Positions 13,896 through 36,999 of a DNA stretch of 64,000 nt are shown piece by piece. The notes beneath the pieces are model-generated. The model saw nothing but the letters and a program-made list of their open reading frames with translations, made no database searches and was not told the origin of the DNA. The stretch's first letter is position 1. Each line of letters begins with the position of its first letter. Position numbers and translations under genes: made by a program. Source of the DNA: Candidatus Saccharimonadota bacterium (GTDB lineage Bacteria > Patescibacteriota > Saccharimonadia > Saccharimonadales > Saccharimonadaceae); assembly GCA_009783305.1 (NCBI GenBank), contig WRHJ01000002.1:23097-87096 (forward strand), given 5' to 3'.

Positions 13896-14288
13896 ATGAA
13901 AAAAATTTTTAGTAAAATCGGACAGGTTATCACCGGAGCTAGCGCCGTTGCCACCCTTTGGGCTGGCCGCGTCATGGCCGCTGGCAACCCAGCGCAAGAA
14001 GGCGCTGAAACCGCCAAACCCGACGGCGTGCCCACAGAACTAATTGGACCCGACGGGGTTTTCACCGAAATCACCAACACTATCCTTTTCGTCGTTGGCA
14101 TCATCAGCATCGTCATGCTCATCTGGGGCGGTCTCCGCTATATTCTATCCGGAGGCGACAGTAAAAAAGTCACTGATGCTAAAAATACCATCCTTTACGC
14201 CATCATCGGCCTCATTGTGGCCCTCCTTGCCTATGCCATAGTCAACTTCGTCATCAATGCCATCGGCGGCGACACCGCCTCCAACTAA
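13896..14288 (+). CDS. VirB2/TrbC-like T4SS pilin-type protein
   Basis: Signal peptide, two TM segments, WGGLRYILSGGDSKKVTDAKNTILYAIIGLIVALLAYAIVNFV. Confidence 0.8.
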   Translation: MKKIFSKIGQVITGASAVATLWAGRVMAAGNPAQEGAETAKPDGVPTELIGPDGVFTEITNTILFVVGIISIVMLIWGGLRYILSGGDSKKVTDAKNTILYAIIGLIVALLAYAIVNFVINAIGGDTASN

Positions 14289-14965
14289 TCGCCAGATTTT
14301 GCCAATACTATCACCGACACATTTTTCGCCCCGCCTTTTTTCAATGCCATACACACCGCCTCCAGGCTTGCTCCAGTCGTGCAGACATCGTCCAACACCA
14401 AATAATTCCACCGTTCATCAACTTCTCCCACCAACATATACGCCGATTTAGCCTGCTCGCGCCTGCACTTCGCGCTCGCACCCACCTGCACCGTATTGGT
14501 AACCCTTCGCACCAATTTTGTACATTTCCACTTTCGAAGCTTAGCTAGTTTTTTAGCTATCAGCCACGTATGATCCAATCCTCGTTCCCGCACGTGTCGA
14601 GCTATCGTCGGCACCGGCACTACCGCCGTATTTTCAGGCAAATAGGGCAGTACCGCATCCATCATTTCTGCTATCGGCCAAGCCAGTGCCCTAATCGACT
14701 GATACTTTAGCCCGTCCACCAACTTACCTAAATTCTCACTCCGCCTCCCCACCACCCATGAATGCTCATATGGCAAATCGCAGGCCAAACAAGCATTTTC
14801 TATGACCGCACCACATCTTAAACACCTATTCGCATTGCCACTACTATTGTAAAATTTACAACACTCACACAGTATTCCCCCCAATTTTCCACATAACAGA
14901 CAGTAATGCGGGCAAAATAACTCACATATTGCCCTCACTGTTGTATTTTTTACACTAAAAATCAT
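14285..14965 (-). CDS. comFC: ComF family phosphoribosyltransferase
   Basis: CPHYCLLCG...C..CRCG zinc motif and LVLDDVCTTGASLEA PRPP motif. Confidence 0.85.
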   Translation of the reverse strand: MIFSVKNTTVRAICELFCPHYCLLCGKLGGILCECCKFYNSSGNANRCLRCGAVIENACLACDLPYEHSWVVGRRSENLGKLVDGLKYQSIRALAWPIAEMMDAVLPYLPENTAVVPVPTIARHVRERGLDHTWLIAKKLAKLRKWKCTKLVRRVTNTVQVGASAKCRREQAKSAYMLVGEVDERWNYLVLDDVCTTGASLEAVCMALKKGGAKNVSVIVLAKSGD

Positions 14966-15039
14966 GGAATCCCTTGATTTTAGGTGAAGCGCTCCATATA
15001 ATAAAGCATAATAGAGTAAGTGGAGGAAGATCAAAAGCT

Positions 15040-15543
15040 ATGGCTCGTAACAAGAACGAAGACATGCTGATGGAAGATGAACTAGCAGCCGCATTTCTCG
15101 ACGACAATGCCGAGGATGTTGCTCTTGTAGAGACAGAGGAAATCATGTCCGCTGTCGACTCCAATATGGAACCATCAGAGCAGGGGGATGATGGGTGGGA
15201 TACAGAAACCGAAGATATCCCAGGGCAACTTGCCGTCGATGTCTACGAAACCGCCGAAAAATTAATTGTCAAAGCTCGCACTGCTGGTATTTCCCGCAGC
15301 GACCTAGATGTTTCTATTTCGGATAACATCCTGACTATTTCAGGCACCCTCAACGGTGGCGAAGATGATAAGGCTACCAACTGGCACATCCAAGAATGCT
15401 ACTGGGGAGAATTCAGTCGCACAATTGCTTTGCCAGTCCAAATCAAAGAAGACGGCGTCGAAGCCGTGCTCAAAGATGGTGTTCTGACCATCTCCTTCGA
15501 GAAAGAAAAAGTCACTGATCGTAAGAAAATAACTGTTAACTAA
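15040..15543 (+). CDS. Hsp20/alpha-crystallin family small heat shock protein
   Basis: LAVDVYETAEKLIVKARTAGISRSDLDVSISDNILTISG...DGVLTISFEKEK. Confidence 0.88.
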   Translation: MARNKNEDMLMEDELAAAFLDDNAEDVALVETEEIMSAVDSNMEPSEQGDDGWDTETEDIPGQLAVDVYETAEKLIVKARTAGISRSDLDVSISDNILTISGTLNGGEDDKATNWHIQECYWGEFSRTIALPVQIKEDGVEAVLKDGVLTISFEKEKVTDRKKITVN

Positions 15544-15589
15544 CCGCCTCGACCCGTTTCAAGTCCACCTTGTCGACGACAAGAAACGA

Positions 15590-15618
15590 AATACCCCTCT
15601 CTCGGAGGGGTATTTCTT
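15590..15618. terminator. Bidirectional terminator
   Basis: AAATACCCCTCtctcgGAGGGGTATTT. Confidence 0.8.
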
Positions 15619-15633
15619 ATATCTTATTTAAGT

Positions 15634-16158
15634 TTAGAATATGCTGCTCAACACAAAGTTCACAATCGCAAAGGCCAAGATCGCTACCACTAAACCAATA
15701 ATACCGTACATAATTGTATCTTTGGCTTTTTTCACCTTGCCAGAATCACCTTGAGAAGTAGAGTATTGAATACCGCCAAGAATTACCATGACCACAGCAA
15801 TAATACCAACTACGAAAATCACCGTGTTGATAATAGTCTGGATAATCGAGTTCAGGTTAGCAGTCTCGCAACCATCCGGGTTTGATGCCAATGACGCCGC
15901 CTTAGTACAATCTGCCGATGTTTTACCCCACATATCATATGACGTAGCACTGATTTTTATCTTCGACGCGCCACATTTCCTAGGAAAACGAGCATCTGGC
16001 GGAGTCTCGCCGTCAGAGCTATTGCCAATATAAACGCCCGCATAATCACCGGTCTGGGCACCTGTAACACAGGCCGCCGCAAACGCTGGCATCGCGACAA
16101 ATACTGCCATCCCTAACGCCAACACCCCTCCTCTTACAATATTCTTTATCTTACTCAT
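15634..16158 (-). CDS. VirB2/TrbC-like pilin paralog
   Basis: GGIQYSTSQGDSGKVKKAKDTIMYGIIGLVVAILAFAIVNFVL. Confidence 0.8.
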   Translation of the reverse strand: MSKIKNIVRGGVLALGMAVFVAMPAFAAACVTGAQTGDYAGVYIGNSSDGETPPDARFPRKCGASKIKISATSYDMWGKTSADCTKAASLASNPDGCETANLNSIIQTIINTVIFVVGIIAVVMVILGGIQYSTSQGDSGKVKKAKDTIMYGIIGLVVAILAFAIVNFVLSSIF

Positions 16159-16199
16159 CTTTTAGTTTCTCCGTTCTTATTATTACTTTTTAATCTTTC

Positions 16200-16607
16200 C
16201 TAAAACACACTGCTTAACACAAAATTCACAATCGTGAAAGCCAACAGTGCTACAATTAAACCAATAATACCGTACATAATAGTATCTTTTGCCTTCTTCA
16301 CCTTGCCAGAATCACCCTGAGAGGTCGAGTACTGAATTCCACCCAGAATAATCATGACCACAGCAATAATACCGACTACGAAAATCACCGTGTTGATAAT
16401 AGCTTGAATCACATTCATTAAATCCACGCTGCCACCATCTGGATCAACTGCATCCGCACCCGCCGCCGCACATCCTGCCGACGATGAAGCCGTCGAGCCA
16501 TCCGGGCACGTCACATCAGCCCAAGCTGGCAGAGCCACACCCGCCACGCCGACTACCATCAACACAGTCCCCATCACAATTTTTAATTTATTACTTAGTT
16601 TGGTCAT
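16200..16607 (-). CDS. VirB2/TrbC-like pilin paralog
   Basis: Same GGIQYSTSQGDSGKVKKAKDTIMYGIIGL core. Confidence 0.8.
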   Translation of the reverse strand: MTKLSNKLKIVMGTVLMVVGVAGVALPAWADVTCPDGSTASSSAGCAAAGADAVDPDGGSVDLMNVIQAIINTVIFVVGIIAVVMIILGGIQYSTSQGDSGKVKKAKDTIMYGIIGLIVALLAFTIVNFVLSSVF

Positions 16608-16661
16608 TATATTATCTCCGTTTTTCTTAATTCCTATCATACCATGATGCTTACAGTTGCG

Positions 16662-16976
16662 CTACCGCATTATCGCGTCCAACGCAAAACTTACAATCGC
16701 AAAGGCCAAGATCGCTACCACCAAACCGATGATACCGTACATAATCGTGTCCTTTGCCTTCTTTACCTTGCCCGAGTCTCCCTGCGACATAGCGTAGTTG
16801 ACGCCTCCCACAATAATCATAATCGCTGCAATAATACCAACTAGAAAAATCACAGTTATCACAATTGGCGCTATCACATCTTCCACGGATGACACGCCCC
16901 CACCTCCAGTCGCATCATTTATGCTATCTTCCACCGAACCGGATACATCTCCCAATATCATCAATATTTTACTCAT
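16662..16976 (-). CDS. VirB2/TrbC-like pilin paralog (no obvious signal peptide)
   Basis: GGVNYAMSQGDSGKVKKAKDTIMYGIIGL core. Confidence 0.78.
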   Translation of the reverse strand: MSKILMILGDVSGSVEDSINDATGGGGVSSVEDVIAPIVITVIFLVGIIAAIMIIVGGVNYAMSQGDSGKVKKAKDTIMYGIIGLVVAILAFAIVSFALDAIMR

Positions 16977-17377
16977 TGAATTCCTCCCAAAACAAACGCC
17001 GTAATCGCAAATGCCAACAAAGTCACAATCAGCCCGATTATCGCGTACATAATTGTGTCCTTTGCCTTCTTCACCTTGCCAGGATCACCTTGAGAAATTG
17101 AATACCTCACACCACCAAATATAATCACCCCTGCCGCAATAATCCCCGCAATCGAAAACACCGCCATCACCGCACCCGGAACCTTATCAAATACTGTTTG
17201 CCCACCGCCACCTCCACATCCAGCCGCTATATATGCATCAGCATCAGCAATTGGGTCCAATTGACTGCAAATCGGATCTTCCCACGCCATTACCGATACG
17301 GGCCACAGCACCGAAATCCCCATCACCAAAACCAATAACATCATCAGAACTTTTTTCATCTCGCTGGCACCTCCCAT
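16973..17377 (-). CDS. VirB2/TrbC-like pilin paralog
   Basis: GGVRYSISQGDPGKVKKAKDTIMYAIIGL core; overlaps neighbour. Confidence 0.78.
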   Translation of the reverse strand: MGGASEMKKVLMMLLVLVMGISVLWPVSVMAWEDPICSQLDPIADADAYIAAGCGGGGGQTVFDKVPGAVMAVFSIAGIIAAGVIIFGGVRYSISQGDPGKVKKAKDTIMYAIIGLIVTLLAFAITAFVLGGIQ

Positions 17378-17799
17378 TTCTCACCACTATCGCCATCATC
17401 TGCATCATCTGCATCCTCACTAGTACCGCCCGATCCTCCGCCGCCAGTAGGCGACCTCGTATCATCAAACGCTCCTGTCACAAACATCACGATCGCCGCT
17501 GCCGCTGTCGCAATAATCAAACCAATTATTGTATACGTAATCGTTTGCTGCGCCTTCTTCGTCCTCTCCGGCTCGCCCTCACTCGTCATATACTGAATTC
17601 CCGCCACGACAATTATTATCGCCGCCACCACGCCAATCGCAAAATACGCCCAACCTAACACTGCCGACACTATGCCTGCGCCCGTCATATCGCACGGGTC
17701 AATCATAATTCCAGAACCCGGAGGATCCTCATATGGCGCGCACGGCAAATTAGGACTACTAATCCCAGCCGCCATCGCCTTCAAAATCATACCTATCAT
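17356..17799 (-). CDS. VirB2/TrbC-like pilin paralog with Gly/Asp-rich tail
   Basis: AGIQYMTSEGEPERTKKAQQTITYTIIGL; C-term GGGGSGGTSEDADDADDGDSGEK. Confidence 0.72.
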   Translation of the reverse strand: MIGMILKAMAAGISSPNLPCAPYEDPPGSGIMIDPCDMTGAGIVSAVLGWAYFAIGVVAAIIIVVAGIQYMTSEGEPERTKKAQQTITYTIIGLIIATAAAAIVMFVTGAFDDTRSPTGGGGSGGTSEDADDADDGDSGEKWEVPAR

Positions 17800-18245
17800 A
17801 TTCCCATCGCCTCCGTTATCACGCCGACAATCGTGCTAACTATTAACGACGCCAAAATACATATAATCAGCCCAACCACCGCCGATATCACCGTCCGCTT
17901 ACCCTTCGCAATCCGTCCCGGATCACCTCTCGCCAACACATATAAGTATCCGCCATACACAATGAATCCAAGCGCCAAATATCCTACCAAATTAAACAGT
18001 ATATTTAGTATATTCAAGACTATTGCCCACACAAACCCAGCCACCTCTCCATCCCCTTGTGGCGTCTTTATCACGCACTTGTCACCCTGAGCTTTTACCA
18101 AATTGTAATACCATGGCCGAAACGTCAAAAATGACGTTTGGCAATCATCATCCGTCAATGCCGATGCCGGCGTTGGCGACAGTAGCCCAACCCCCAAACC
18201 AACCGTTATGACAACCATTATTATCATTAGTAGATGTTTTATCAT
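17796..18245 (-). CDS. VirB2/TrbC-like pilin paralog
   Basis: GGYLYVLARGDPGRIAKGKRTVISAVVGL; start overlaps upstream stop (ATGA). Confidence 0.72.
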   Translation of the reverse strand: MIKHLLMIIMVVITVGLGVGLLSPTPASALTDDDCQTSFLTFRPWYYNLVKAQGDKCVIKTPQGDGEVAGFVWAIVLNILNILFNLVGYLALGFIVYGGYLYVLARGDPGRIAKGKRTVISAVVGLIICILASLIVSTIVGVITEAMGI

Positions 18246-18643
18246 GCCTGTATTGTAAACCCTGGTATCAACCAATTCAAGATTAGCCATATCAAAGCCC
18301 AAACAATCAAGCCAATCACTATATTAAATATTCGACTCTTTGCCTTTACGATCTGCTCCTCTTTATCACGTGCCGTCATCCACTGAATACCACTTATCAC
18401 TATACCAACCAAGGCTAAAATACCTATACCCATAGTCATAATGTTCAATATCAATTCCAATATCCTCCAGACTCCGTTCTCACCGCACCAGTCCGATGGC
18501 AAAATCCCCACACACTCATCCGCCGCAGAAACTGGCGAAGTCAACACAACAGATACGACAGCAGCCATAACCACTACGCAACCCAAAAACCTCAGCCATC
18601 TATTCTTTGTCTGAGACTTAAGATTCTGCTTAAAATCACTCAT
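18242..18643 (-). CDS. VirB2/TrbC-like pilin paralog
   Basis: SGIQWMTARDKEEQIVKAKSRIFNIVIGL core. Confidence 0.72.
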   Translation of the reverse strand: MSDFKQNLKSQTKNRWLRFLGCVVVMAAVVSVVLTSPVSAADECVGILPSDWCGENGVWRILELILNIMTMGIGILALVGIVISGIQWMTARDKEEQIVKAKSRIFNIVIGLIVWALIWLILNWLIPGFTIQA

Positions 18644-18698
18644 ATCTATCCAAATTATAACACAACTAAAAAGCCCAACAAAAACACTATAAAATCTC

Positions 18699-18727
18699 TT
18701 GACTAAAGTGCTTATGTGTGCTATAAT
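18699..18727 (+). promoter_or_regulatory. Promoter TTGACT-N17-TATAAT
   Basis: TTGACT 18699-18704, TGTGC-TATAAT 18722-18727, ATG at 18738. Confidence 0.8.
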
Positions 18728-18737
18728 TAGCCAAGCC

Positions 18738-21700
18738 ATGAAAAAGAGGCTTATTTATTTTCTGTGCTCCATATTTGCCGTGCTCGGCCTCCTTTTTGCT
18801 ACACAAGATGTCTTTGCTGACCCCCCCACAACTAACCCAGATACCTCAGTTATCATTCCGGTTGACCCAGGCGATCCTAATGATGACATCACTGACGACC
18901 CCGAAACCGACGAGGAAGTCACCACTGACGCCACCTGCTATGACCAAGTCGGCGGCATTGGCTGGCTCATCTGTCCGGTCACCGGCACTCTAGCCAAAGC
19001 CATTGACTCGGTCTACGGGATTATTGAAAGTCTTCTCAAAGTCAATCCCATCTCTACCGATCAAGACTCTCCCATCTATCTAGTCTGGGAGTACATCCGC
19101 AACATCACAAACGTTATCTTCATTATCTTCCTCCTGGTAGTCATTTACTCTCAAGTGACTGGTTTTGGCATCACCAACTATGGCATCAAGAAAGTCTTGC
19201 CGCGCATCATTATCGCCGCCATCCTCGTCAATCTCAGCTACATCATCTGCGCCTTAGCCGTCGACGTTAGCAATATCCTCGGTAGCGGACTTGGCGCCGT
19301 CTTTACCAATATCTACGAAATTGCCACCGCCGGCGAAACTGTCAGTTATTCCGTCGGTGAAATTGCCGGCACCATACTTGGCACTGTCGCCGTTGGCGCT
19401 GGCGCCACTATAGCTGGTCTCGCCATCGTCGGCGGAATAGGCGCCGCCCTCTGGATGCTTGTCCCTGTCATCTTCGCCGGCATCGTCGCCGTCATCACTG
19501 CACTCATCGTCTTGGCTGCCCGCCAAGCTCTTATCATTATCCTCATCATGATTGCCCCTCTTGCCTTCGTTGCCTACCTTCTCCCCAACACCGAAAAATG
19601 GTTCAAAAAATGGAAAGATATCCTCCTGCAAATGCTCATTTTCTACCCCATGTTCGCCGTTCTATTTTCCGCCTCTCAGCTTGCCAGCTGGGTCATCATC
19701 AGTAGTGCCACCAACGTTTTCGGCATTATTCTCGGCGTCGCCGTTCAAGTCCTCCCCCTTTTCTTCACCTTCTCGCTCATGAAGATGAGCAATACCATCC
19801 TCGGCAACATCAGCACCGGCATCCAAAAATTCACCTCTCCTGCTCAAAAGGGAATTGGTACCTGGGCAGACTCGCGCCGTTCCACCTCAAAGGCCAGGCA
19901 TATTGCCGCCAATCGCACTCCATCTGCTCGTCTCAGCAATTACTTAGCCTACCGCAAAACCCTCCGCGAAACTGATACTAGTGATGCGGAAAAGATCATA
20001 GAAGGTCGCGCCACCATCCGTGCTCAACGCAAAATTTCCGGTGGCTTCGATGCCAACGACCCAACTAAGGTTCTCCGCGCCAACCGCTACACTCGCCGTG
20101 CCAAGACTGCCAGCACCACCTCTAGCCTTGCCGACACTGCTAAAAGCGATACTTCTAACCTTCTTGGTGCTTACGGCTCTTCCTACGGAGGCGCTCACAC
20201 TGCAAATCTCGCCAACTCTCGCCGCCTGCCACTTCGCGCTTTCGATAAGCATCTATCAAACGTCGACCAACGCCTCGCCGACGCCGGCGCCGAAGCCTAC
20301 CTGCATGCCAACCGTACCGCCTTCACTGCCGAAAGCAACGAAGAGGCCGACTGGAGTTACCTATTCAAAACTTACGCTGATGCCGCCAATGGCGGATATG
20401 GCACTTATAATTACAGGCGCTGGCTCAATGCTTCCGCCGGCGAACTTGGTCCTGCCGGCATCAGTAGCGTACTCGGCCAAATCATCGCCAAAGCCGACGC
20501 TGCCGAGCAACGCCGCCGCAAATACGACCGCATCCTGCTTAACAAATATGGCCACGACAAACGCACTTTCCGCAACATGGTCGTCGGTTATTATGTCGAT
20601 GATGATGGTTTCGCCACCGATAAAGACGGTGAGCATGTCATGTTCTATGATCCGATCTTACGCAAAAATCGCAAGGAGCTCGTTCCTGGCGAGCTACTCC
20701 TCAAGGACCCCTCAAAACTCGTCCGCTACGACGTCATCGACGAAGATGGCAAACCTTACTACGACTGGAAAGATCAAAAAGGCAATTTCCTCATGCGCGT
20801 CTACCGCGAAGACGTCCCTTACATGAAAGAAGCCTTTAGTAGTGACGATATCCCCATCAACGATCCTATCAACAGTCTCTACGCCATTCTTGCCGGCATT
20901 TATCCCGACGACCCAGCAAACGAAGGCATTGGGCTCGCTAACTTCAGCACTACGCTCGGCCGTGCTCTTCAAGCTGCCAACTACAAGGAAAAGACCGCTG
21001 GTATGGGCGCTCAAGCTATCGCCAGTATTTCAAGGCGCCAAATCAAGAACCACGCCCAACTCGGCATCGAATTTCTCGACAACATAAAGAAAACCGGTAA
21101 AGCCAGTAACTTTAATACTCAAGATGCTATTCACATCAAACAATTTGCCGCCTACCTTGACCCGGACAACTGGCCGATTCTCTTCCCGGAAGAGGGCATC
21201 ATGAGCTATGTCAATGTTAACGGCGAACCTCTCGAGGGCTTGGATGAGGACGGCAATAAAGTCAAAGCCAACATCGCTACCTACGAAGAAAAGATGCGAC
21301 AAGTCAAATCAAAATATCTTTTCCCGGTCGTCAAAAAATTCGCCACCTTCCTTGCTCGTGTCACATCTAATACAGTCGACAATCAAAAGCCTGGCGCCGG
21401 CGACGAGCTGGCTAAATTAAAGGATCTCCTCGATGAACATTGGAGCGGCGCAGAAGCTGTTAGGGAAGGGTTCACCGATGCCTACGCCCAAGATTCCAAC
21501 TTTATAGAAACCTCACGCGCCGTCCGCCAACGCCTCCAAACTCTTCCGGACATAATTCCCACCCATGAATCTGACATTCGTCTCATCATAGACGAGCTCT
21601 TCAATGCAGGTAACGATATCGATTCCATCGCTTCCACTATCCGCTACCACTTCGGAGATCACCCGCGCCTTGGTGCAGCTCTCGAAGAATTCGATCAATT

Positions 21701-21782
21701 CATGCAAGATAACCCCTACATCGAAGAAGAGCAGCTCCTCGAAGCCGTCCTGGACATCATCCAGCCATACCTCAGCGACTAG
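18738..21782 (+). CDS. VirB6/TrbL-like polytopic T4SS membrane protein with ~500-aa soluble C-terminal domain
   Basis: Signal peptide, multiple TM segments, ARQALIIILIMIAPLAFVAYLLPNTEKWFKKW motif. Confidence 0.8.
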   Translation: MKKRLIYFLCSIFAVLGLLFATQDVFADPPTTNPDTSVIIPVDPGDPNDDITDDPETDEEVTTDATCYDQVGGIGWLICPVTGTLAKAIDSVYGIIESLLKVNPISTDQDSPIYLVWEYIRNITNVIFIIFLLVVIYSQVTGFGITNYGIKKVLPRIIIAAILVNLSYIICALAVDVSNILGSGLGAVFTNIYEIATAGETVSYSVGEIAGTILGTVAVGAGATIAGLAIVGGIGAALWMLVPVIFAGIVAVITALIVLAARQALIIILIMIAPLAFVAYLLPNTEKWFKKWKDILLQMLIFYPMFAVLFSASQLASWVIISSATNVFGIILGVAVQVLPLFFTFSLMKMSNTILGNISTGIQKFTSPAQKGIGTWADSRRSTSKARHIAANRTPSARLSNYLAYRKTLRETDTSDAEKIIEGRATIRAQRKISGGFDANDPTKVLRANRYTRRAKTASTTSSLADTAKSDTSNLLGAYGSSYGGAHTANLANSRRLPLRAFDKHLSNVDQRLADAGAEAYLHANRTAFTAESNEEADWSYLFKTYADAANGGYGTYNYRRWLNASAGELGPAGISSVLGQIIAKADAAEQRRRKYDRILLNKYGHDKRTFRNMVVGYYVDDDGFATDKDGEHVMFYDPILRKNRKELVPGELLLKDPSKLVRYDVIDEDGKPYYDWKDQKGNFLMRVYREDVPYMKEAFSSDDIPINDPINSLYAILAGIYPDDPANEGIGLANFSTTLGRALQAANYKEKTAGMGAQAIASISRRQIKNHAQLGIEFLDNIKKTGKASNFNTQDAIHIKQFAAYLDPDNWPILFPEEGIMSYVNVNGEPLEGLDEDGNKVKANIATYEEKMRQVKSKYLFPVVKKFATFLARVTSNTVDNQKPGAGDELAKLKDLLDEHWSGAEAVREGFTDAYAQDSNFIETSRAVRQRLQTLPDIIPTHESDIRLIIDELFNAGNDIDSIASTIRYHFGDHPRLGAALEEFDQFMQDNPYIEEEQLLEAVLDIIQPYLSD

Positions 21783-21794
21783 CAAGCTCCAGTA

Positions 21795-21823
21795 TTGTTT
21801 TTCGTGCCAAAACGTGATATAAT
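21795..21823 (+). promoter_or_regulatory. Promoter TTGTTT-N17-TATAAT
   Basis: TTGTTT 21795-21800, TATAAT 21818-21823. Confidence 0.6.
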
Positions 21824-21859
21824 ATACATATCCTCATAGGCATCTTACCATGAAAGAAG

Positions 21860-22390
21860 GTGAAAGCATTGTTGATCACGCCCACGATCACATTAGTCCT
21901 CATCGCCCTGGTCTCCATAGCAATCGTCTATATCGCAGCAGACCAAGTAACTAAATACTGCAAAAATCGGGAACGTCCCATCATGGCCGATTCAACCACA
22001 GATTTCGTCGTCCCCCTCTGCTGTTTAGCCCACATCGTCGCCTGCGCTTTCTTGGCATTTTGGACTTCCTACGGGCTGGTTTTCATCATTATCGTAATGG
22101 TCGTCTCAGTACTAGCCATTGCTATAGTAGCCCAACTCAAACAGCAGGACAAAGCAAAGGCTGCAAGTAAAGCTCGGACAGAACAAGAGAGGCACCAAAA
22201 ACAATGGGATCTAGACCATTGCAAGCACCTCAACGTCAAAAACTGTGTCTGTTTATCCTGCGGGAGCAGAGTACATCGTCCTAGAATATACCTCGGCAAA
22301 AGTGGATCATATCGCGAATGGAAGTGCCAAACCTGCGGGACAACCGGACGAGACAAAGAAGATGACGACAATTTCCTCCCCCTCAGATAG
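21860..22390 (+). CDS. Membrane protein with C-terminal zinc-ribbon-like domain
   Basis: Two to three TM segments then CVCLSCGSRVH...WKCQTCGTTG. Confidence 0.6.
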   Translation: MKALLITPTITLVLIALVSIAIVYIAADQVTKYCKNRERPIMADSTTDFVVPLCCLAHIVACAFLAFWTSYGLVFIIIVMVVSVLAIAIVAQLKQQDKAKAASKARTEQERHQKQWDLDHCKHLNVKNCVCLSCGSRVHRPRIYLGKSGSYREWKCQTCGTTGRDKEDDDNFLPLR

Positions 22391-22409
22391 CTACGCGTCT
22401 ATCTCAAGC

Positions 22410-22441
22410 CCTCCATACAGGAGGGTTTTTCTTTTTACGAG
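22410..22441 (+). terminator. Intrinsic terminator
   Basis: CCCTCCatacaGGAGGGTTTTTCTTTTT. Confidence 0.85.
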
Positions 22442-22456
22442 TCTTCATCAAAATGA

Positions 22457-22521
22457 TTGACCTTTTACGCTAAATATGATAGAATAATAAAAGGAGGTCC
22501 TCTTGCAATCGCAAGGGGACC
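22457..22521 (+). promoter_or_regulatory. Promoter TTGACC-N17-TAGAAT followed by a 5'-terminal hairpin
   Basis: Hairpin GGTCC-T-CTTGC-AATC-GCAAG-G-GGACC at 22496-22521. Confidence 0.65.
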
Positions 22522-22561
22522 ATCTTGCTATTTAAAATTCTTGTGAAAAGGAGCACCAACC

Positions 22562-24064: not shown

Positions 24065-24141
24065 CTCACGAGAGTCAACCACAAAACCCGCCACCCGGCG
24101 GGTTTTTCCTTTGCAAAACAATAATGCTATAATTAATACAT

Positions 24142-25044
24142 ATGGCTCAGTACAAGGTCCCCCAAGACGTTGAGGCCGACGATAAACTTCTCGGTCCATT
24201 TACTTTTCGTCAATTTATTTACCTCATTATTGCCACCGGCATGATTGCCCTCGCTTGGGCGCTTTTCCAAGTTTTCCCGCTCCTAGTCATCATCCCTGTA
24301 CCCATCATCCTTTTTTTCGGAGCTCTCGCCTTGCCGCTCAAAAAAGACCAGCCCATGGAAACTTATCTAGCCGCTCTTGTTTCTTTTTATCTCAAGCCCC
24401 GCAAACGTTTCTGGGAACCCGGCCAATCCGAATCCACCATTCGCATTACCGCACCCAAGAAAGTTGAGGCCAGCCGCGTCAAAGACATCAGCCAAGCCGA
24501 AGCTAGCCATCGTCTTTCCTTCCTCGCCGAAATCGTCGACACCGAAGGTCACGCTATCAAGGGCCCCGCTTCTAGCCCTATCCGGGAAGAAGTTTTCGCC
24601 GAAGCCAACAACACCGCCGACATGTTTGAGCTTTCCAATTTCGACACCCACAGCCTCAATCAAATCATCAAAAATGACACTGCTGAGCGACACCAGGCTG
24701 CCGTGCAACAAATGAAGGCTGCCATCGAAAACGCTTCATCCCTCCACAATTCGGACGCCACTATCCAAAAATTCAGTGAACCCGTACCTCCACCCGTTTC
24801 CGCGCCTAACACCAACAGCGCCATCGTCCAACCGCTGGCTCCAGCGCCACCACCCGAAAGCGTCATTGTCCAACCCGAACCACAACCCAAATCCCAACCA
24901 GCTCCAGCTCCGACACCAGCCCAGCCTCATCCTGCTCTTGTCAATCTCGCCAACGACAAAGACCTCTCCATCCAAACTATCGCCCAAGAAGCCAACCGTC
25001 TCCAACAAAAGCACGACGACGAAGTCGTCATCTCGCTCCGTTAA
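24142..25044 (+). CDS. PrgI-family T4SS membrane protein with long Pro-rich tail
   Basis: MAQYKVPQDVEADDKLLGPFTFRQFIYLI... typical PrgI N-term. Confidence 0.85.
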   Translation: MAQYKVPQDVEADDKLLGPFTFRQFIYLIIATGMIALAWALFQVFPLLVIIPVPIILFFGALALPLKKDQPMETYLAALVSFYLKPRKRFWEPGQSESTIRITAPKKVEASRVKDISQAEASHRLSFLAEIVDTEGHAIKGPASSPIREEVFAEANNTADMFELSNFDTHSLNQIIKNDTAERHQAAVQQMKAAIENASSLHNSDATIQKFSEPVPPPVSAPNTNSAIVQPLAPAPPPESVIVQPEPQPKSQPAPAPTPAQPHPALVNLANDKDLSIQTIAQEANRLQQKHDDEVVISLR

Positions 25045-25091
25045 TCCTCGCCTATCATTTTTCATCCCACTTGTGCTAAAATAATAATATT

Positions 25092-25895
25092 ATGAACCCG
25101 CAGCAACCTGTTCAGACAGCGCCCGGCGCACCAGCGCCTGCTACAGCTCCCATCGCCTCCGCCCCCGCCGCCGAACCCACCTCCGCAAACGTAGAAGCTC
25201 CTAGTAGTACGCAAGCCACCTTGCTCATTTCCGAAATCCGCGACTCCATGGTCATCATGAAAGACGGCTCTTTTCGCGCCGTCGTTGCTTGCAAATCCAT
25301 CAACTTCGACCTCATGTCCGAAACCGAACGCGAAGGCGTTGAGTACTCTTACCAAAACTTCCTTAACTCGCTCAACTTTACTACGCAGATCCTGATCCGT
25401 TCTCAACGTGTTGACATCGGTCCTTACATCGAACGGCTTACCGAAATCCGCCGCAACAACGACAATATGTTGCTCGGCGTTCTCATGGACGACTATATCA
25501 ACTTTATCGACGTCCTTTCCCAAGAAGCCAACATTATGGATAAGTCATTTTTCGTTATCGTTCCATACTATTCTTCCCCTGATGCTGAAAAAATCGTCCA
25601 ACAAACTAAAAATCTCTTTAAATCCTTCAGTAAAAATAAAGGCCCCATCATCACTAAGATTGATCGCGCTACTTATGACAAAGCTAACTCCGAAATGAAT
25701 ACGCGCATCGAAGCTGTCATCGCCGGACTATTCCAGATTGGTATCCAGTCCGTCCGCCTCAACACCAAAGAACTCGGGCAGCTCTACTATAACTTCAACA
25801 ACCCAGACACCGCCGTACGCGAGCCGCTCGGTGATTTCCGCCAAGTCACCGGACTCTATATCAAAAAAGGTGAAAAGGAGGCCACCAATGGCTAA
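25092..25895 (+). CDS. VirB4 N-terminal-like (TraC/CagE_TrbE-N-like) protein
   Basis: ISEIRDSMVIMKDGSFRAVVACKSINFDLMSETERE...; located directly upstream of the ATPase. Confidence 0.7.
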   Translation: MNPQQPVQTAPGAPAPATAPIASAPAAEPTSANVEAPSSTQATLLISEIRDSMVIMKDGSFRAVVACKSINFDLMSETEREGVEYSYQNFLNSLNFTTQILIRSQRVDIGPYIERLTEIRRNNDNMLLGVLMDDYINFIDVLSQEANIMDKSFFVIVPYYSSPDAEKIVQQTKNLFKSFSKNKGPIITKIDRATYDKANSEMNTRIEAVIAGLFQIGIQSVRLNTKELGQLYYNFNNPDTAVREPLGDFRQVTGLYIKKGEKEATNG

Positions 25896-27699
25896 ACTTA
25901 CCGCCGCCGAAATCGCCACCCAGGCCCAACTCCAAGAAGATGAGCAAATCCAAAAAGCCTTCGAGACCGGCATCACCACGCTCCGCGACCTCATCAGCCC
26001 ATCCAGCATCGAAATTCACAGTTCCTATTTCCGCCTCGGTACCAAGTATGGCCGCACCTTGTATGTCTACGGCTATCCTCGCTCTCTCTATACTGGATGG
26101 CTCAGTTCCATCATTAACATTGACGAAGTCATCGACATCTCCATGTACGTTTATCCAGTCGACACCGGAGTCGTCATGAAAAACCTCAGCAAAAAAGTCA
26201 CCCAGCTCGAAGCCAATATGTCTATCAACTCCGAAAAGGGCAAGATTCGCGATCCCGAACTCGAAGCCGCCATCAACGACGCCGAAGAGCTGCGCGATCA
26301 ACTTCAGCTCGGCGCCGAAAAGTTTTTCCGTTTCGGCCTATACATCACCATCTACGCCGATTCGCTCGACGAACTTCAGTTTGTCCAACACAAAATCGAA
26401 AATATTTTCGGCCAACAAATGATCTTCAGCAAAGTCGCCAGCAGTCAGCAAGAGCAGGGCATGAATTCTACCATGCCGCAATGTACCGACCAGCTTCAAA
26501 TTCGCCGCAATATGAATACCGGTGCCATCTCCACCAGCTTCCCCTTTACGTCTGCCGATCTTACCCAAGAAAAAGGTATTCTTTACGGCATCAATATGCA
26601 CAATAACGGTCTCGTTATCTTCGACCGCTTCAGTCTTGAAAACGCCAACATGGTCGTCTTCGCCAAATCCGGCGCCGGCAAATCTTTCACTGTCAAACTC
26701 GAAGCTCTCCGCTCCATGATGGTCGGTTCCGAAATTATCATCATTGACCCTGAAAACGAATACCAAAAACTCGCCGACGCCGTTGGCGGCAGCTATATTC
26801 GTCTCTCACTCAACTCCGACGTCCGCATTAATCCCTTCGATCTACCCAGAGTCATCGATACCGAAGACGCCAACGACGCTCTCCGCGCCAACCTTGTCAC
26901 TCTTCACGGTCTCTTCCGTCTCATGCTCGGCGGTACCCAACTCGGTCCCGGCGGCGTTCCTATTGCTGGACTCGGCCCCAATGAAGAAGCCGATCTCGAT
27001 CAGGCTCTCATCGACACTTACGCTCGCGCCGGCATCACCTCCGACCCCCTCACTCACAATTCCACGCCACCCACCATCATCAATCTATATGACACACTGC
27101 TCCACATGGGCGGCTCCGGACCCCAGCTCGCCCAGCGTCTCCGCAAGTACACCTCCGGCACTTTTGCCGGCATCTTCTCTCAGCAAAGCAATATCGATAT
27201 CAATAATCAGATGGTCGTCTTCAACATCCGCGACCTCGAAGATGAACTCCGCCCCGTTGCTATGTATATCGTTCTATCTCACGTTTGGAACACCGTCCGC
27301 GCCCAACAGAAAAAACGCCTGCTCATCGTTGACGAGGCCTGGCAGCTCATGAAATATGAGGACTCTGCCAACTTCCTCTTCTCCCTCGCCAAACGCGCTC
27401 GCAAATACTATCTTGGCCTCACCACTATTACCCAAGATGTCGAAGATTTCATGGGCAGCAAAATGGGCCGTGCCATCGTCGCCAACTCCAGCATCCAACT
27501 CCTCCTCAAACAATCTGCCTCCGCCGTCGACGTCTTATCTGATGTTTTCAAGCTCACCGACGAAGAGCGCAAGCGTCTCGCCAATTTCCCAGTCGGCCAA
27601 GGCCTCTTCTTCGCCGGCCAAAATCACGTCCATATTCAAATCATTGCCAGCGAAACTGAAGAATCTCTCGTCACCACCAATCCTCAAGACAAAAGATAG
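25888..27699 (+). CDS. virB4: VirB4-family T4SS ATPase
   Basis: VVFAKSGAGKSFTVKLEALR Walker A, RLLIVDEAWQLM Walker B; start overlaps previous CDS by 8 nt. Confidence 0.9.
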   Translation: MAKLTAAEIATQAQLQEDEQIQKAFETGITTLRDLISPSSIEIHSSYFRLGTKYGRTLYVYGYPRSLYTGWLSSIINIDEVIDISMYVYPVDTGVVMKNLSKKVTQLEANMSINSEKGKIRDPELEAAINDAEELRDQLQLGAEKFFRFGLYITIYADSLDELQFVQHKIENIFGQQMIFSKVASSQQEQGMNSTMPQCTDQLQIRRNMNTGAISTSFPFTSADLTQEKGILYGINMHNNGLVIFDRFSLENANMVVFAKSGAGKSFTVKLEALRSMMVGSEIIIIDPENEYQKLADAVGGSYIRLSLNSDVRINPFDLPRVIDTEDANDALRANLVTLHGLFRLMLGGTQLGPGGVPIAGLGPNEEADLDQALIDTYARAGITSDPLTHNSTPPTIINLYDTLLHMGGSGPQLAQRLRKYTSGTFAGIFSQQSNIDINNQMVVFNIRDLEDELRPVAMYIVLSHVWNTVRAQQKKRLLIVDEAWQLMKYEDSANFLFSLAKRARKYYLGLTTITQDVEDFMGSKMGRAIVANSSIQLLLKQSASAVDVLSDVFKLTDEERKRLANFPVGQGLFFAGQNHVHIQIIASETEESLVTTNPQDKR

Positions 27700-27736
27700 A
27701 CTTTTCCACCAGCAAATTATATAATATATACATATT

Positions 27737-30490
27737 ATGGCCTCCACACCAGATGATTCACGCATGGCAAAACACGATCCATACCGAGATATGGAGCATC
27801 ACCAAACACGACCTAGCGACATTAAACACGGCGACGCCCAAGACACACTCAAACAAGCTGAATCATCTGCCTCTTCCGTCTCCAAACGCTCCGTAGATTC
27901 CCGTTCCGCCGAAGATGTCACGCAGAACAGCCCCTTCAAAAACAACGTCAAGGGTCGACCTAATTCATCTACTAAAAAATCTAAAAAAGGCTTCTTCAAA
28001 GGCAAAGGACCTCTCACTTTTATCCTCTTCCTTATATTTGGCGGTGGCGCTCTCTTTTTCTCCGGCCAATCTATCCTCGGCCCCCACATTTCTAATCTTT
28101 ACACCCAAGCTACCGACGTTCAATTCACCAGCTACAGCCTCCGCAATCAACGCCTCTTCAGCTTCATGCTCGACGGCGGCTCCCAAATCCGTGTTACGCC
28201 TTTCTCTCAAAAATTTACCGTATTCACTCCCTACATGAAAGGGCGTCTCGCCAATAATGGTATTGAAGTCGGGCATCTCGACGCCGACGGCAATTTCCTA
28301 TCCGGCGACGCTTTCGCTGGCAAATCGCGCGCCCTACTTTTTAACAATGAGGTTATTCCTGCGGCCGATTTTACAACCAGATACGCCCAAGATGCCAATT
28401 TCCGTGAGGCTTATTACAAAGCCAAACGCGGCCGCGTCGCCGGCTTTTTCGACGACGCCTCCGATTGGGTCTATCGCAAGCTCGGCCTCACTCGCAATAT
28501 TTTTGATGAATTTAAAACATCCGGCGACTCTACCGCCGACACTGACAATTTTAAGGATACTCTCGGTTCCCATCTCAATGGCACCGACACCGACATCAAT
28601 ACTGTCGGGCATGTCACTGATGACAATGGTACTCCCAACGATCCCTCCGATGACGTCACGCGCCCCGTTAAAAATGGTGACGACATCAATGTCAACAAGA
28701 TTGACGGTGAAACTCCTGAAATCAAAGCCCGCACCCTTGCCCTCAGTCTCGTCAATAAAGTCAGCAATGCCGGTAGTATGTTTTGTACTGCCATGCGCGT
28801 CGCCAATCTTGCCAACATTGCCGCTTTTGCCGCCTCTACCGCCAATTCCATTAACTACTTCATGGGGCTAACTGAAAATATCAGCAAAATGATGGCTGGC
28901 GAAGGCGATGCTTCCGCCATCAACGACGTCCTCAACTTCTTTACTACCTCGACCACCAGCGATGTCTCTAAAACTGACGCTTCTGGCAACACCGAGACCG
29001 TCCAAGTCACTGGTAGCCCCCTGCAAAGCAACGGTGCCCGCATTATTCTGGGCGGCGTTGTCCCCACCAAATATGAAACCGGCGCTTATTCCTTAGAGTC
29101 CATTACCTCCGGCGCCAAACGTACCGTCCTAGTCAACGGTGGCACCACAGTTGCTTGTGCCGGCGTCCGCGCTGCCTCTGCCGTCATTTCTCTCGTCGCC
29201 ACCGGCATCCCCGGCGGCGCTATCGCTCGAGTTGTCATCGGCATGATTGCCCAAACCATCGGCGGTATCGCCATCACTGGTATCATGGCTGCCATTGTCT
29301 CTGCCATCGTCCCCACTCTCGCGCGTATTCTCTTCACTAATGTCCTCGATGCTTACACTGGTATACCCGCCGGCGAACTTTATACTCAGGGAGCCGCTGC
29401 TGCCAACGCCCGCGTTGCACAAAACTCCAGCGCTTATACTCCAGGGTCTTCCGCCGCTATCGAGGCCAACGCCCGCGCTACCTCCATCGTCCTAGCCCAA
29501 GAAGCTGAAATTGACCGTAAAAACCGCAGTCCCTTCGACATCACCAGCAACAACACCTTCCTCGGCCATATTGTTGCCGGTTTCTGGCCACTCCTTACCA
29601 GTTCGTCTCCCACCGCACCCATCTCCACCCTTAGCAAACTCACGTCAAATGCTATTAGTAGTCTTCTCCCCGCTACCTTCGCAGCTGGTGCCGCCAATCC
29701 CACCTACACCACCATCTACGGTGATTGTCCAACCCTCGATGAAATTGGCGTCAAAGGCGACATTTACTGCAATGCCATCTTTACCTCCGACCTATCTACT
29801 ATCGATACTAAACCCGACGATGCCATCTATGAAAATCTTATTTCTCAAAACCTCAAATCCGACGGCTCCACCATCAAAGATGGCTCCGAGCTCGCCAAAT
29901 TCATCACTTTCTGTGCTAATCGCGAATCACCTTTCGGCATCACCGATGCCAACATCCTGAACGCCCTGCAGACTACCGGTGGTATTATTCTTAATAATAT
30001 CCCCATCCTCAACAACGTCATCGATCTCGTCAACGCCTCCGAAGATATCGCCAATATGGATTGGGCTACTGGCAAAAACTGCGTCAACACTAAAGAAAAT
30101 CCCCGTTGGGAAAATGAATTCAAATATTATCAACGCTACGTCGAAGATGCTCGCATCCTCGATCAGATGGGCGCTTTCGAAGACAGCGAAAATCCCGTTC
30201 TCGCTTTTCAAGAGAGATACTTCGAACAACACCCCCTCGATAATTCTCCCCAGGGCTACCTCGCCCGCATCACCGGTATGACCAAAGACGACGTTGCCTT
30301 CTTGCTTGAATTCATCGACTATTCCAATTTCCTCGCCGAATACGACCCCACTGGCCTTTACCCCGTCCTCGCCACTGTTAAAGAGGACGTCAAATTATCC
30401 TTTACTTCCAATCTCCTGTCAACAGAGCAGGGGGTTACTCTGGGGCATGTTATTTACGCTGATGTTCGCAACAGGAGTTACGCAGCATGA
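27737..30490 (+). CDS. Large T4SS-associated membrane protein (VirB6-like/CPR-specific)
   Basis: One N-term TM plus central hydrophobic cluster; embedded in the T4SS operon. Confidence 0.6.
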   Translation: MASTPDDSRMAKHDPYRDMEHHQTRPSDIKHGDAQDTLKQAESSASSVSKRSVDSRSAEDVTQNSPFKNNVKGRPNSSTKKSKKGFFKGKGPLTFILFLIFGGGALFFSGQSILGPHISNLYTQATDVQFTSYSLRNQRLFSFMLDGGSQIRVTPFSQKFTVFTPYMKGRLANNGIEVGHLDADGNFLSGDAFAGKSRALLFNNEVIPAADFTTRYAQDANFREAYYKAKRGRVAGFFDDASDWVYRKLGLTRNIFDEFKTSGDSTADTDNFKDTLGSHLNGTDTDINTVGHVTDDNGTPNDPSDDVTRPVKNGDDINVNKIDGETPEIKARTLALSLVNKVSNAGSMFCTAMRVANLANIAAFAASTANSINYFMGLTENISKMMAGEGDASAINDVLNFFTTSTTSDVSKTDASGNTETVQVTGSPLQSNGARIILGGVVPTKYETGAYSLESITSGAKRTVLVNGGTTVACAGVRAASAVISLVATGIPGGAIARVVIGMIAQTIGGIAITGIMAAIVSAIVPTLARILFTNVLDAYTGIPAGELYTQGAAAANARVAQNSSAYTPGSSAAIEANARATSIVLAQEAEIDRKNRSPFDITSNNTFLGHIVAGFWPLLTSSSPTAPISTLSKLTSNAISSLLPATFAAGAANPTYTTIYGDCPTLDEIGVKGDIYCNAIFTSDLSTIDTKPDDAIYENLISQNLKSDGSTIKDGSELAKFITFCANRESPFGITDANILNALQTTGGIILNNIPILNNVIDLVNASEDIANMDWATGKNCVNTKENPRWENEFKYYQRYVEDARILDQMGAFEDSENPVLAFQERYFEQHPLDNSPQGYLARITGMTKDDVAFLLEFIDYSNFLAEYDPTGLYPVLATVKEDVKLSFTSNLLSTEQGVTLGHVIYADVRNRSYAA

Positions 30491-32328
30491 AAACTCAGAT
30501 TCCATTTTTAAAGACCGTATCGAAACCCAAGAAAACCCTGCCCAAAGCAGGTTTTCCTGGCGTGGAAATGGGTCGTAAAAAATGGAATCTGAGTTTTCTA
30601 GCAGCCGCAGTCGTGTTGCTATGTTCCATTATCATGCCGTCAGTCTATGCCCTCGACGATTCCACCCTGGACATGTTCGATCAAAACGGCATCTATTACT
30701 ACAATCCCAGTGGCAATAACGGCTGCGTCTCCATTTCCACCACTCTAAGAGGCAAAGATATTATCGAAAAAACCTGGAATTTCTTTATTGACCAAGGTTT
30801 CAATGACGCTCAAGTCTCCGGTATCCTCGGCAACGCCAAGGCCGAATCCGGCTTCAGCCCCACTCGCTCTCTCAAGGGCACTTATTGGGGCATCTTCCAA
30901 TGGGGTGGCGGACGACAAGCCGCTCTATTCGAAAAACTCCGTGCCGCCGGTCTCGGCGCCTACCTCGACAGTGCCTACTGGCCAGCCGGTGCTGACAAAA
31001 ACATCCCTGCTGCAGACCTCGACGCTATCCTCCAAATCTCGCTCGAACATGCCATGTCCGAACCAGACTACGATTGGCAAAATGAACTCAAAAAGGCCCA
31101 CACGCCAGCCGAAGCCGCCGAAATCTTCCTCGTCCTCTTTGAACGCGCCATCGCCTCTCCCAAACACCCCGGTTCCGAAATCCTTTATTATGCGCCCTTC
31201 GCCGGTCTTGAATACCAAGGCGCTGCTGGTCGCCGCGACAACGCTGCGGCCTTCTTTAAGCAATACTCCGGCAACGGCATCAGCAACTTCAGCAACCCTA
31301 CCGCCACCGACGGCGCCAATGTCACCATTATCGGCGACTCCATCGCTGCCGGCGCTACCACTGCACTCCTCGTCAAATTCCCAGAGCTAGCAACCCACAA
31401 CATCAGCGTTGCCGTCAGTCGCACTTGGGCCGAAGGTATTGAAATTGCTAAAGCCATCCCCCTCCAAGACATTGTCGTTTTTGCACTCGGCACCAACACG
31501 CCAAATCTCGCACAAGCGGACATCGACTCTGCCATGTCCGCTATCGGCAACGGCCGTCGAGTCGTCTTTGTCACTAATTACGGCCCCGCCGGCTATACCT
31601 CCAACAACGCTCTCTTCCGCCAAGCTACCGTCAATTACCGCAATGTCATTATCGCCGATTGGGCTACGACCGTCTCCAAAGCTCCGCAAACTTACCTGCA
31701 AAATGACCAAGTCCATCCCAATTCAGCTGGCAACAATCTCTTTGCTGAAACCATTTTCAAGGCCATCAATAGCAACACCAACGCCAATGGCTGCAGCGTC
31801 ACTGGCGAATTCATCGCCCTCGTCCGAGCCTACGCCTGGCCCGACTTCCATCCCCCTCAATTTGTCGATCGTATGCCAGCCTACGCCAATGCTGTCACTA
31901 TTTCCATTAGTGAGGGCCGTTATGTCGGCGGCTCTGTTGCTGGTGTACCCGGCATTGACTGCGGCGGTTTTGTCACCGTTCTAGTTCAAAACAGCGGCCT
32001 CGCCCCAGAATATAACGGATACAATAGTAACACTGGTCCTCAAGAAAAATGGGTCGTTGATAATGGTTGGCTCCTGGTCAACGGCAGCCCCACCACCCCA
32101 GTCGACACTAGTCTTCTGCAACCCGGCGACGTCGCCTTTTCCGGCGGTACTGGCTACCAAAATAACGGTCACACCTTCATTTACGTCGGAGAAATCCCCG
32201 GCTTCAATAGCGTCATTGCCTCTGCATCCTATAGCACAACTGGCGAAAGCGGCCGTGCGCCCATGGCAGGCAGGGAAGACCTAATCGGCAGCGCCGGCTC
32301 ACCCGTACGCTGGTATCGGAAAAATTAA
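30487..32328 (+). CDS. Secreted multi-domain murein-active protein: phage-tail-lysozyme-like + SGNH hydrolase + CHAP/NlpC-P60-like
   Basis: ILGNAKAESGFSP...WGIFQWGGGRQ; VTIIGDSIAAG...HPNSAGN; GIDCGGFVTVLVQNSG...LLQPGDVAFSGG...GHTFIYVG. Confidence 0.75.
   Translation: MKTQIPFLKTVSKPKKTLPKAGFPGVEMGRKKWNLSFLAAAVVLLCSIIMPSVYALDDSTLDMFDQNGIYYYNPSGNNGCVSISTTLRGKDIIEKTWNFFIDQGFNDAQVSGILGNAKAESGFSPTRSLKGTYWGIFQWGGGRQAALFEKLRAAGLGAYLDSAYWPAGADKNIPAADLDAILQISLEHAMSEPDYDWQNELKKAHTPAEAAEIFLVLFERAIASPKHPGSEILYYAPFAGLEYQGAAGRRDNAAAFFKQYSGNGISNFSNPTATDGANVTIIGDSIAAGATTALLVKFPELATHNISVAVSRTWAEGIEIAKAIPLQDIVVFALGTNTPNLAQADIDSAMSAIGNGRRVVFVTNYGPAGYTSNNALFRQATVNYRNVIIADWATTVSKAPQTYLQNDQVHPNSAGNNLFAETIFKAINSNTNANGCSVTGEFIALVRAYAWPDFHPPQFVDRMPAYANAVTISISEGRYVGGSVAGVPGIDCGGFVTVLVQNSGLAPEYNGYNSNTGPQEKWVVDNGWLLVNGSPTTPVDTSLLQPGDVAFSGGTGYQNNGHTFIYVGEIPGFNSVIASASYSTTGESGRAPMAGREDLIGSAGSPVRWYRKN
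30490..30597. repeat. Perfect 20-bp inverted repeat with internal hairpin at the 5' end of CDS 30487
   Basis: AAAACTCAGATTCCATTTTT (30490-30509) / AAAAATGGAATCTGAGTTTT (30578-30597); inner GAAAACCCTGC/GCAGGTTTTC 30531-30556. Confidence 0.9.
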
Positions 32329-32330
32329 TC

Positions 32331-33236
32331 ATGAAACGCCTTACCGCCAACCAACGCATCAAGTTAGCAGTTGCCGCTTTCCTTGGTTTAGTCGTCCTCG
32401 CCATCATCTTCACTGCCGTCATTTATGTCTCTCGCATCGGCAAGGTAGCTGTTATCACCAAATATGCACCCTACAATGCCTCTGTCTACCTCAACGGTTC
32501 TGAAATTAACAACAACGCTACCAATTTTTTAACCCCAGGCACCTATGAACTCACCGTTAACCTTGAACACTTCGTCACCAACACTGAAACTATCACCATT
32601 ACGGAAGATACCGAATATATCCTCGGGTCCCTCATCTTCGCCGACGAAGAGGGACAAGTCATCACCGCGGAGCGCAAAAAAGACTTCCTGGAAGTAGAGG
32701 GTATTTTTGGTAAACTGCTCACCAACGCTGGGAATAAAATCCGACAAGAATACCCTATTTTAGATTTTCTACCCATCAATAATGCCTTTTATTCCATCAG
32801 CTTCGCCTACAAGGACGACGGTTCCCCCAAAATCACCGTCCAGGCCCAACCAACCATGGTTGATGTCGCCGTCCGTAAAATGCTCTCCTTCCCAGACATC
32901 ACTCTAACCGACTACGACATCACCTTCACCACACCCAACCCTTTTACCTCGCCCGCCCCCAACAATATCTCCGACCCTTTTACCTTCATCCGAGCCAGCT
33001 TCCCTAATATCATCAATCATTATCAATTCGGGCCCGGTCGCAATGCCGGCGAGTATTACTTGACCACTATCTACACTTACAACTTCACCTCCGATGATTC
33101 CTACGCCCATTTCAAAGTTATTCTCCGAAAAACCGGCGACTCTTGGACCTTTGCCGCCACACCCCAACTGCTTTTCACCACCAAAAATGCCCCCTCCATA
33201 CCCGTCGAAATCTTGGATTACGCCAACCGCCTCTAA
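32331..33236 (+). CDS. Membrane-anchored hypothetical protein with PEGA-like domain
   Basis: N-term TM, APYNASVYLNGSEINNNATNFLTPGTYELTVNLEHF. Confidence 0.6.
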   Translation: MKRLTANQRIKLAVAAFLGLVVLAIIFTAVIYVSRIGKVAVITKYAPYNASVYLNGSEINNNATNFLTPGTYELTVNLEHFVTNTETITITEDTEYILGSLIFADEEGQVITAERKKDFLEVEGIFGKLLTNAGNKIRQEYPILDFLPINNAFYSISFAYKDDGSPKITVQAQPTMVDVAVRKMLSFPDITLTDYDITFTTPNPFTSPAPNNISDPFTFIRASFPNIINHYQFGPGRNAGEYYLTTIYTYNFTSDDSYAHFKVILRKTGDSWTFAATPQLLFTTKNAPSIPVEILDYANRL

Positions 33237-36964: not shown

Positions 36965-36999
36965 GAGCTCATTCCTCCTTGTGACCTTTGTTATTAACA

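Follow-up and report, generated by a model that had tools for sequence, protein, structure and literature searches.

An exchangeable VirB6 tail module in a type IV secretion locus of a Saccharimonadaceae genome

The window, a 64,000-nucleotide stretch of contig WRHJ01000002.1 (positions 23,097 to 87,096, forward strand; assembly GCA_009783305.1) from a Candidatus Saccharimonadota bacterium, contains a type IV secretion system (T4SS) locus at 13896-33236. Its new elements are a swappable tail on the membrane protein VirB6 and a free-standing copy of that tail (tail2); the exchange has good evidence behind it, and the function we infer. The whole is best explained, and in our judgement probably, as a host-contact T4SS with an exchangeable VirB6 tail module, of which type B was gained in this genome. 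Family searches and synteny place all genes named by a first-pass annotation of the window at 13896-33236. That reading missed two features, namely that the VirB6 tail is itself foreign to the genus and that an insertion at 21783-24141, unseen in relatives, holds a second copy of it.

VirB6 core, tail and the adjoining insertion

VirB6 is encoded by an uninterrupted 1015-codon frame (start taken as the ATG at 18738, end at 21782), composed of a 416-residue membrane core and a tail of ~600 residues. The region up to prgI comprises the following features:

18738-19982, + strand: VirB6 membrane core, genus-type (hydropathy, positive-inside pattern, core tree)
19983-21782, + strand: VirB6 tail, type B, predicted cytoplasmic and foreign to the genus (homology scan, profile-profile comparison, typing by hidden Markov models (HMMs))
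21860-22390, + strand: orphan 176-aa protein with three predicted transmembrane (TM) segments and a Cys-rich, zinc-ribbon-like C terminus (hydropathy)
22406-22428, + strand: terminator-like hairpin, followed by a promoter-like site at 22457-22485, between the orphan gene and tail2 (consensus scan only)
22562-24064, + strand: tail2, free-standing copy of the type B tail, no TM segment

The core possesses a signal peptide and about seven TM helices by hydropathy. Together with Lys/Arg residues in the inside loops and a basic tail start, this topology predicts a cytoplasmic tail by the positive-inside rule. Neither Pfam nor NCBIfam gives a match to VirB6; its topology and position agree with the earlier description as VirB6-like, and its core has homologues in 147 of 155 genomes of the class.

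Residues 1-416 match VirB6 of both the genus and a sister genus; in the later half of the core, the best match is G012, the nearest genus mate (63%). Over the remainder, starting at residue ~417, none of 19 genus-mate VirB6 proteins gives a match, and a piecewise scan reveals 35-50% identity to the sister genus. For PrgI, TrsD, VirB4, the large membrane protein and the wall enzyme, the best matches are again genus mates. Profile-profile comparison shows the type A tails of the genus and the type B tails of the window to be unrelated (probability 0.7%), whereas the type A tails found in the two genera are related to each other (99.3%, E 8e-21).

The gap between virB6 and prgI, usually 20-150 bp in relatives, measures 2,360 bp in the window. 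The 2.36-kb insertion, not seen in genus mates, carries in order the orphan gene, the terminator-like and promoter-like sites, and tail2. The 176-aa orphan has no convincing homologue among 295 family genomes, and tail2 has none in genus mates. Tail2 is 67.5% identical to the VirB6 tail, and nonsynonymous divergence (dN 0.244) is far below synonymous divergence (dS 1.398), indicating that both tail copies have been kept as proteins. A third B copy, a 96-aa remnant, lies ~73 kb farther on in this contig (G000:C2:119920-120207, - strand; L070:9918-10208) and adjoins lepA; it corresponds to the last segment of a type B tail (41%) and represents a mobile or remnant tail end. As a shared domain, the C-terminal ~96 residues of the tail are known in only these three copies within the genome.

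A chimeric assembly or bin contamination that fused the tail of another species to virB6 is hardly credible, even for a draft genome in seven contigs. The frame runs uninterrupted across the junction, the contig spans 195 kb, and contamination is 0.87%. GC content is alike in core, tail, tail2 and flanks (0.48-0.54), two non-identical tails and a remnant share one contig, and genus-type genes flank the region on either side.

Viral contigs searched contain no relative of the VirB6 tail. With the window's own two tails as the only queries, a scan of named genomes returned none; named relatives were found only with a profile that included sister-genus tails. All are Candidatus Saccharibacteria, mostly from ruminant gut, in agreement with the lineage proposed in the first-pass annotation.

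Other small soluble proteins (130-227 aa, including one tandem pair) occupy the virB6-prgI junction in the sister-genus loci L109, L118 and L120. The small genes at this junction match no Pfam family.

TraG, a VirB6-like protein, is the exclusion determinant for Eex in SXT/R391. By analogy, the tail could be a self-recognition or exclusion determinant and the small genes beside virB6 its exclusion or immunity partners, a reading encouraged by the presence of small unrelated genes at the junction in the window and in several sister-genus loci, one as a tandem pair. We regard it as improbable: the inserted genes belong to no immunity family, the 176-aa gene of the window is an orphan, and an inserted gene is lacking in the majority of loci with either tail type.

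Tail typing and repeated exchange

HMMs for the VirB6 core, tail A and tail B assign type A to all 20 typed genus mates and type B to the window genome alone. Sister-genus tails comprise 19 of type B, 13 of type A and 5 of neither; B or A also occurs in single members of two other genera. In the VirB6-core tree, G012, which bears an A tail, is the partner of the window genome (98/86), and both fall within the genus (98/91). On this tree the A/B labels need at least six changes within the two genera; counted over all rows, well-supported branches force B to change seven times. A TrsD+VirB4 tree, computed by a quick method and with the five unassigned sister-genus tails counted as A, needs eight A/B changes, three of them forced by starred branches. 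These counts indicate that unrelated tails have been exchanged several times at the same junction. There is thus good evidence that the tail is a module exchanged repeatedly behind a fixed junction just past the last TM helix, and gain of B on its own branch is the simplest reading for the window genome.

Tails do diverge quickly within a type, to about 30% identity inside the genus, and sister-genus A tails give weak HMM matches singly, as would be expected if this were an ordinary T4SS of Patescibacteria in which the VirB6 tail simply evolves fast, with no module exchange. This account is largely refuted and very improbable. Type A is recognisable across both genera, but A and B are not recognisable as relatives (values above), and the sister of the window genome bears A. 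Similarity would have to be erased in one lineage and replaced by convergence on the B tail of the other genus at 35-50%.

The tail tree bears on the direction of change. In the best tree, the window tails group with a single tail of the sister genus, L106 (82/80), and the nearest known type B tail is only 42% identical to that of the window. The approximately unbiased (AU) test does not reject a tree in which the window tails are the sister group of most B tails from the sister genus (p 0.225), so that gain of B is only the probable direction of change and an old polymorphism with lineage sorting a less likely alternative. In such an ancient balanced polymorphism, an ancestor had both tails, which were sorted and occasionally recombined, and B was retained here rather than acquired. 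The AU result, the distance to the closest known B tail, the coexistence of A and B in the sister genus and their occurrence in single members of two other genera all agree with it; nonetheless, type A is found in G012 and in every other typed genus mate, so that retention needs parallel fixation of A, and the best tree places the window tails with L106. We consider retention rather unlikely, and acquisition of B the better reading.

The secretion locus and its known relatives

The remaining features of the locus are as follows:

13896-14288, + strand: T4SS_pilin (VirB2-like), lone copy adjoining comF (PF18895, 52.8 bits); a pilin is likewise placed in relatives
15634-18646, - strand: seven-gene T4SS_pilin array (PF18895, 35.7-48.5 bits each; hydrophobic segments), with members at 15634-16158, 16200-16622, 16662-16976, 16973-17359, 17356-17799, 17796-18287 and 18242-18646
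24142-25044, + strand: PrgI (VirB3-like) with a variable C terminus of ~200 aa (PF12666, 49.6 bits)
25092-25895, + strand: TrsD-like protein, the VirB4 N-terminal domain as its own gene (NF041427 below cut-off; present in relatives)
25888-27699, + strand: VirB4 ATPase (NF045971, 384 bits; PF19044, 98.6 bits)
27737-30490, + strand: 917-aa bitopic or polytopic membrane protein of no family
30487-32328, + strand: secreted wall enzyme (Phage_lysozyme2, SGNH, NlpC/P60)
32331-33236, + strand: PEGA-domain protein with one N-terminal hydrophobic segment (PF08308, 29 bits), last gene of the block
33233-37000: recF, dnaN and dnaA, directly beyond the block

The first pilin is separated from the array by comF-like and hsp20 genes. 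All eight small proteins, first described as VirB2/TrbC-like, pass the T4SS_pilin cut-off (26.6 bits) with 35.7-52.8 bits; none reaches the TrbC/VirB2 cut-off (PF04956). PrgI exceeds its cut-off of 27 bits, as previously called. VirB4 scores 384.4 bits against a cut-off of 325, contains Walker A (GAGKS) and Walker B (LLIVDEAW) motifs, and is 84-92% identical within the genus. The TrsD-like protein matches NF041427 weakly (29.9 bits, E 4.6e-7, under the 200-bit cut-off), and its position beside virB4 is conserved in genus and sister-genus loci. The "split VirB4" of the first-pass annotation is the two-gene TrsD+VirB4 arrangement normal for such loci and unbroken in every complete relative; a pseudogenised VirB4 is rejected because this arrangement is universal among them. 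The pilin, PrgI and VirB4 searches and the synteny comparison suggested there thus gave scores above cut-offs and a common order: the block recurs in genus-mate and sister-genus loci, which excludes its assembly by chance.

No protein of the locus matches the VirB8 family, and the 917-aa protein is only a candidate. Its AlphaFold2 (AF2) model, made to look for a VirB8 fold, has a predicted local distance difference test (pLDDT) score of 37. The protein is missing from many sister-genus loci and is therefore not core. A VirB8-like subunit is rarely detected in T4SSs of the phylum.

The wall enzyme agrees with the three-domain, cell-wall-active protein originally described: Phage_lysozyme2 (70 bits), SGNH/GDSL and a weak NlpC/P60 domain follow an N-terminal hydrophobic segment. 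The middle domain matches PDB entries 5ug1/5ufy (E 2-3e-8), labelled "Acyltransferase" in the structure search, which we take to be the extracellular SGNH domain of OatA. The middle domain keeps the GDS/GTN/DxxH motifs; unlike in OatA, the SGNH domain is fused between lysozyme and NlpC/P60 domains and lies within a secretion locus. Catalytic motifs (lysozyme E, SGNH GDS/GTN/DxxH, NlpC Cys and His) are kept in nearly all genus mates. By its predicted domains, the locus encodes a secreted peptidoglycan hydrolase together with the T4SS, as VirB1-type proteins do, and we infer a VirB1-like role. In the three near-identical genus-mate loci L052, L053 and L054, the middle and C-terminal part of the enzyme is divergent, with SGNH and NlpC motifs lost and the lysozyme motif kept.

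The locus is the Patescibacteria T4SS, a known machine, and the earlier view that it is an apparatus for contact or secretion is right without being new, since a homologous system is already established as essential (PMC10633639) and the same "not conjugation" view has been published (PMC12102498). It resembles the Southlakia locus (SEML1_0006-0019) in possessing VirB4 with a TrsD-like neighbour, PrgI, a VirB6-like protein, a multi-pilin VirB2 array, downstream lysozyme/peptidase genes, proximity to dnaA and no linked relaxase or coupling protein. The phylum-wide survey of 2025 that reached the "not conjugation" reading had already reported such loci to encode PrgI, VirB6 and a TrsD neighbouring VirB4, to lie close to dnaA, to hold 2-11 pilin genes per array and lysozyme/peptidase genes after virB4, and to lack a linked relaxase (PMC12102498). 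In Southlakia epibionticum, transposon sequencing (Tn-seq) found the T4SS essential for epibiotic growth (PMC10633639), in line with the epibiont host-interaction role first proposed. Unlike the rest of the machine, the VirB6 tail exchange, the free-standing tail copy and second VirB6 genes are undescribed in these two accounts (PMC12102498, PMC10633639).

VirB4 and PrgI are also homologous to those of the MPF_FATA systems of monoderms (pGO1 trs, pCF10 prg, CTn2), and pGO1 likewise has a separate TrsD; the VirB4 tree covered Saccharibacteria relatives only. The window locus differs from MPF_FATA systems in its VirB2-like pilins, its fixed, ori-proximal chromosomal site and its lack of a locus relaxase or coupling protein. 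VirB6 of Anaplasma phagocytophilum likewise carries a large hydrophilic extension and has several paralogs per genome (PMC7648143); here, an unrelated extension has taken the place of the original one behind a fixed junction, and it occurs as a gene of its own as well.

Relaxase searches covered PF03432 and PF13814. PF03432 finds no relaxase anywhere in the 98.5%-complete genome, with a positive control in Lactococcus; PF13814 finds none either, but its control was silent everywhere, making that search uninformative. The reported absence of a relaxase thus extends genome-wide for PF03432. VirD4 is absent from the window as stated, although two coupling-protein (T4CP)-like ATPases (902 and 954 aa) exist, unlinked, on other contigs; coupling-protein-like ATPases away from the T4SS locus were found likewise in the phylum survey (PMC12102498). 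Three T2SSE ATPases lie elsewhere in the genome, none near the locus. The recF-dnaN-dnaA site is ori-proximal, common to genus and sister genus, and not a mobile location. An integrative conjugative element is rejected on three grounds: no PF03432 relaxase, no linked coupling protein and a fixed chromosomal place. The choice of a contact or secretion apparatus over a conjugative element is thereby sustained.

An extended -10 element (TGNTATAAT) lies ~9-10 nt before the ATG of both prgI (24125-24142) and virB6 (18719-18738), and a site near the prgI start is present in 34 of 35 relatives. Such close spacing, with no ribosome-binding site, suggests leaderless mRNAs for prgI and virB6.

Proposed mechanism and related loci

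In the proposed machine, VirB4 and TrsD would power assembly and export, PrgI and VirB6 would form the membrane channel, and the pilin array would build a surface pilus or contact structure. The lysozyme-SGNH-NlpC/P60 enzyme would open peptidoglycan. Its most likely tasks are host contact and the delivery of macromolecules rather than conjugation; for the homologous system, what has been shown is that it is essential for epibiotic growth. This lineage would have lost the type A tail and gained the unrelated B just past the last TM helix, together with the 2.36-kb insertion. DNA uptake followed by homologous recombination within the conserved core is the likely route, given that the relative Southlakia epibionticum is naturally transformable (PMC10633639). 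The tail probably serves on the cytoplasmic side as a cartridge for docking or control, setting what the channel exports or when, and tail2 may act in trans. A more specific version can be put forward only tentatively: the tail may be a swappable specificity cartridge that docks substrates or a substrate receptor to a channel lacking a coupling-protein gene in its own locus; unrelated cartridges would be swapped between co-resident genera by transformation, with tail2 as a trans adaptor altering delivery to the bacterial host.

Besides the AU result, several points weigh against a host-contact T4SS with an exchanged tail. Only three changes on the TrsD+VirB4 tree, a quick tree, are forced by starred branches, and the five sister-genus tails that fit neither HMM are grouped with A in it. 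The AF2 model of the tail is mostly helical (pLDDT 72.7), and a fold search with it matched no solved structure in the PDB at E ≤ 0.001, so that function cannot be read from the fold. T4CP-like ATPases do exist in the genome, and the exported substrate may be protein or DNA.

Few machines have been proven essential to the epibiotic way of life in Patescibacteria; the T4SS is one of them, and no coupling protein is linked to it. Exchange of a whole tail between genera, with the rest of the locus genus-type, pinpoints the part under selection for change. The VirB6 tail is therewith a concrete, testable candidate for a docking or control surface, and an entry to the question of the role of extended VirB6 domains raised in a 2025 review (PMC12857230).

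Most genomes of the class carry at least one VirB6 and many carry several, up to eight in one genome. The window genome encodes a second VirB6 of 1273 aa on another contig (G000:C4; L178:8510-16272, - strand), with a long extracytoplasmic N-domain and a type A tail (99.1%, E 7e-19). Its neighbours are a bitopic protein of 307 aa, an LPXTG-type surface protein that contains DUF11 and ends in LPETG plus a TM segment, and a Pro-rich protein; VirB4 is absent. The same gene order follows murB-folD in G017 (L179) and G126 (L180) and is conserved in both genera, making this a candidate adhesin/T4SS accessory locus.

Adjoining the main locus, 12548-13828 (- strand) encodes a protein of 426 aa, weakly similar to GDPD, that is missing from the genus-mate loci retrieved. 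Tandem VirB6 expansions occur in some genera, as in L182 (G137) and L183 (G099). Two more T4SS_pilin domains lie elsewhere in the window genome, at G000:C1:124837-125046 and G000:C6:13075-13278, within frames of 382 and 359 codons, respectively.

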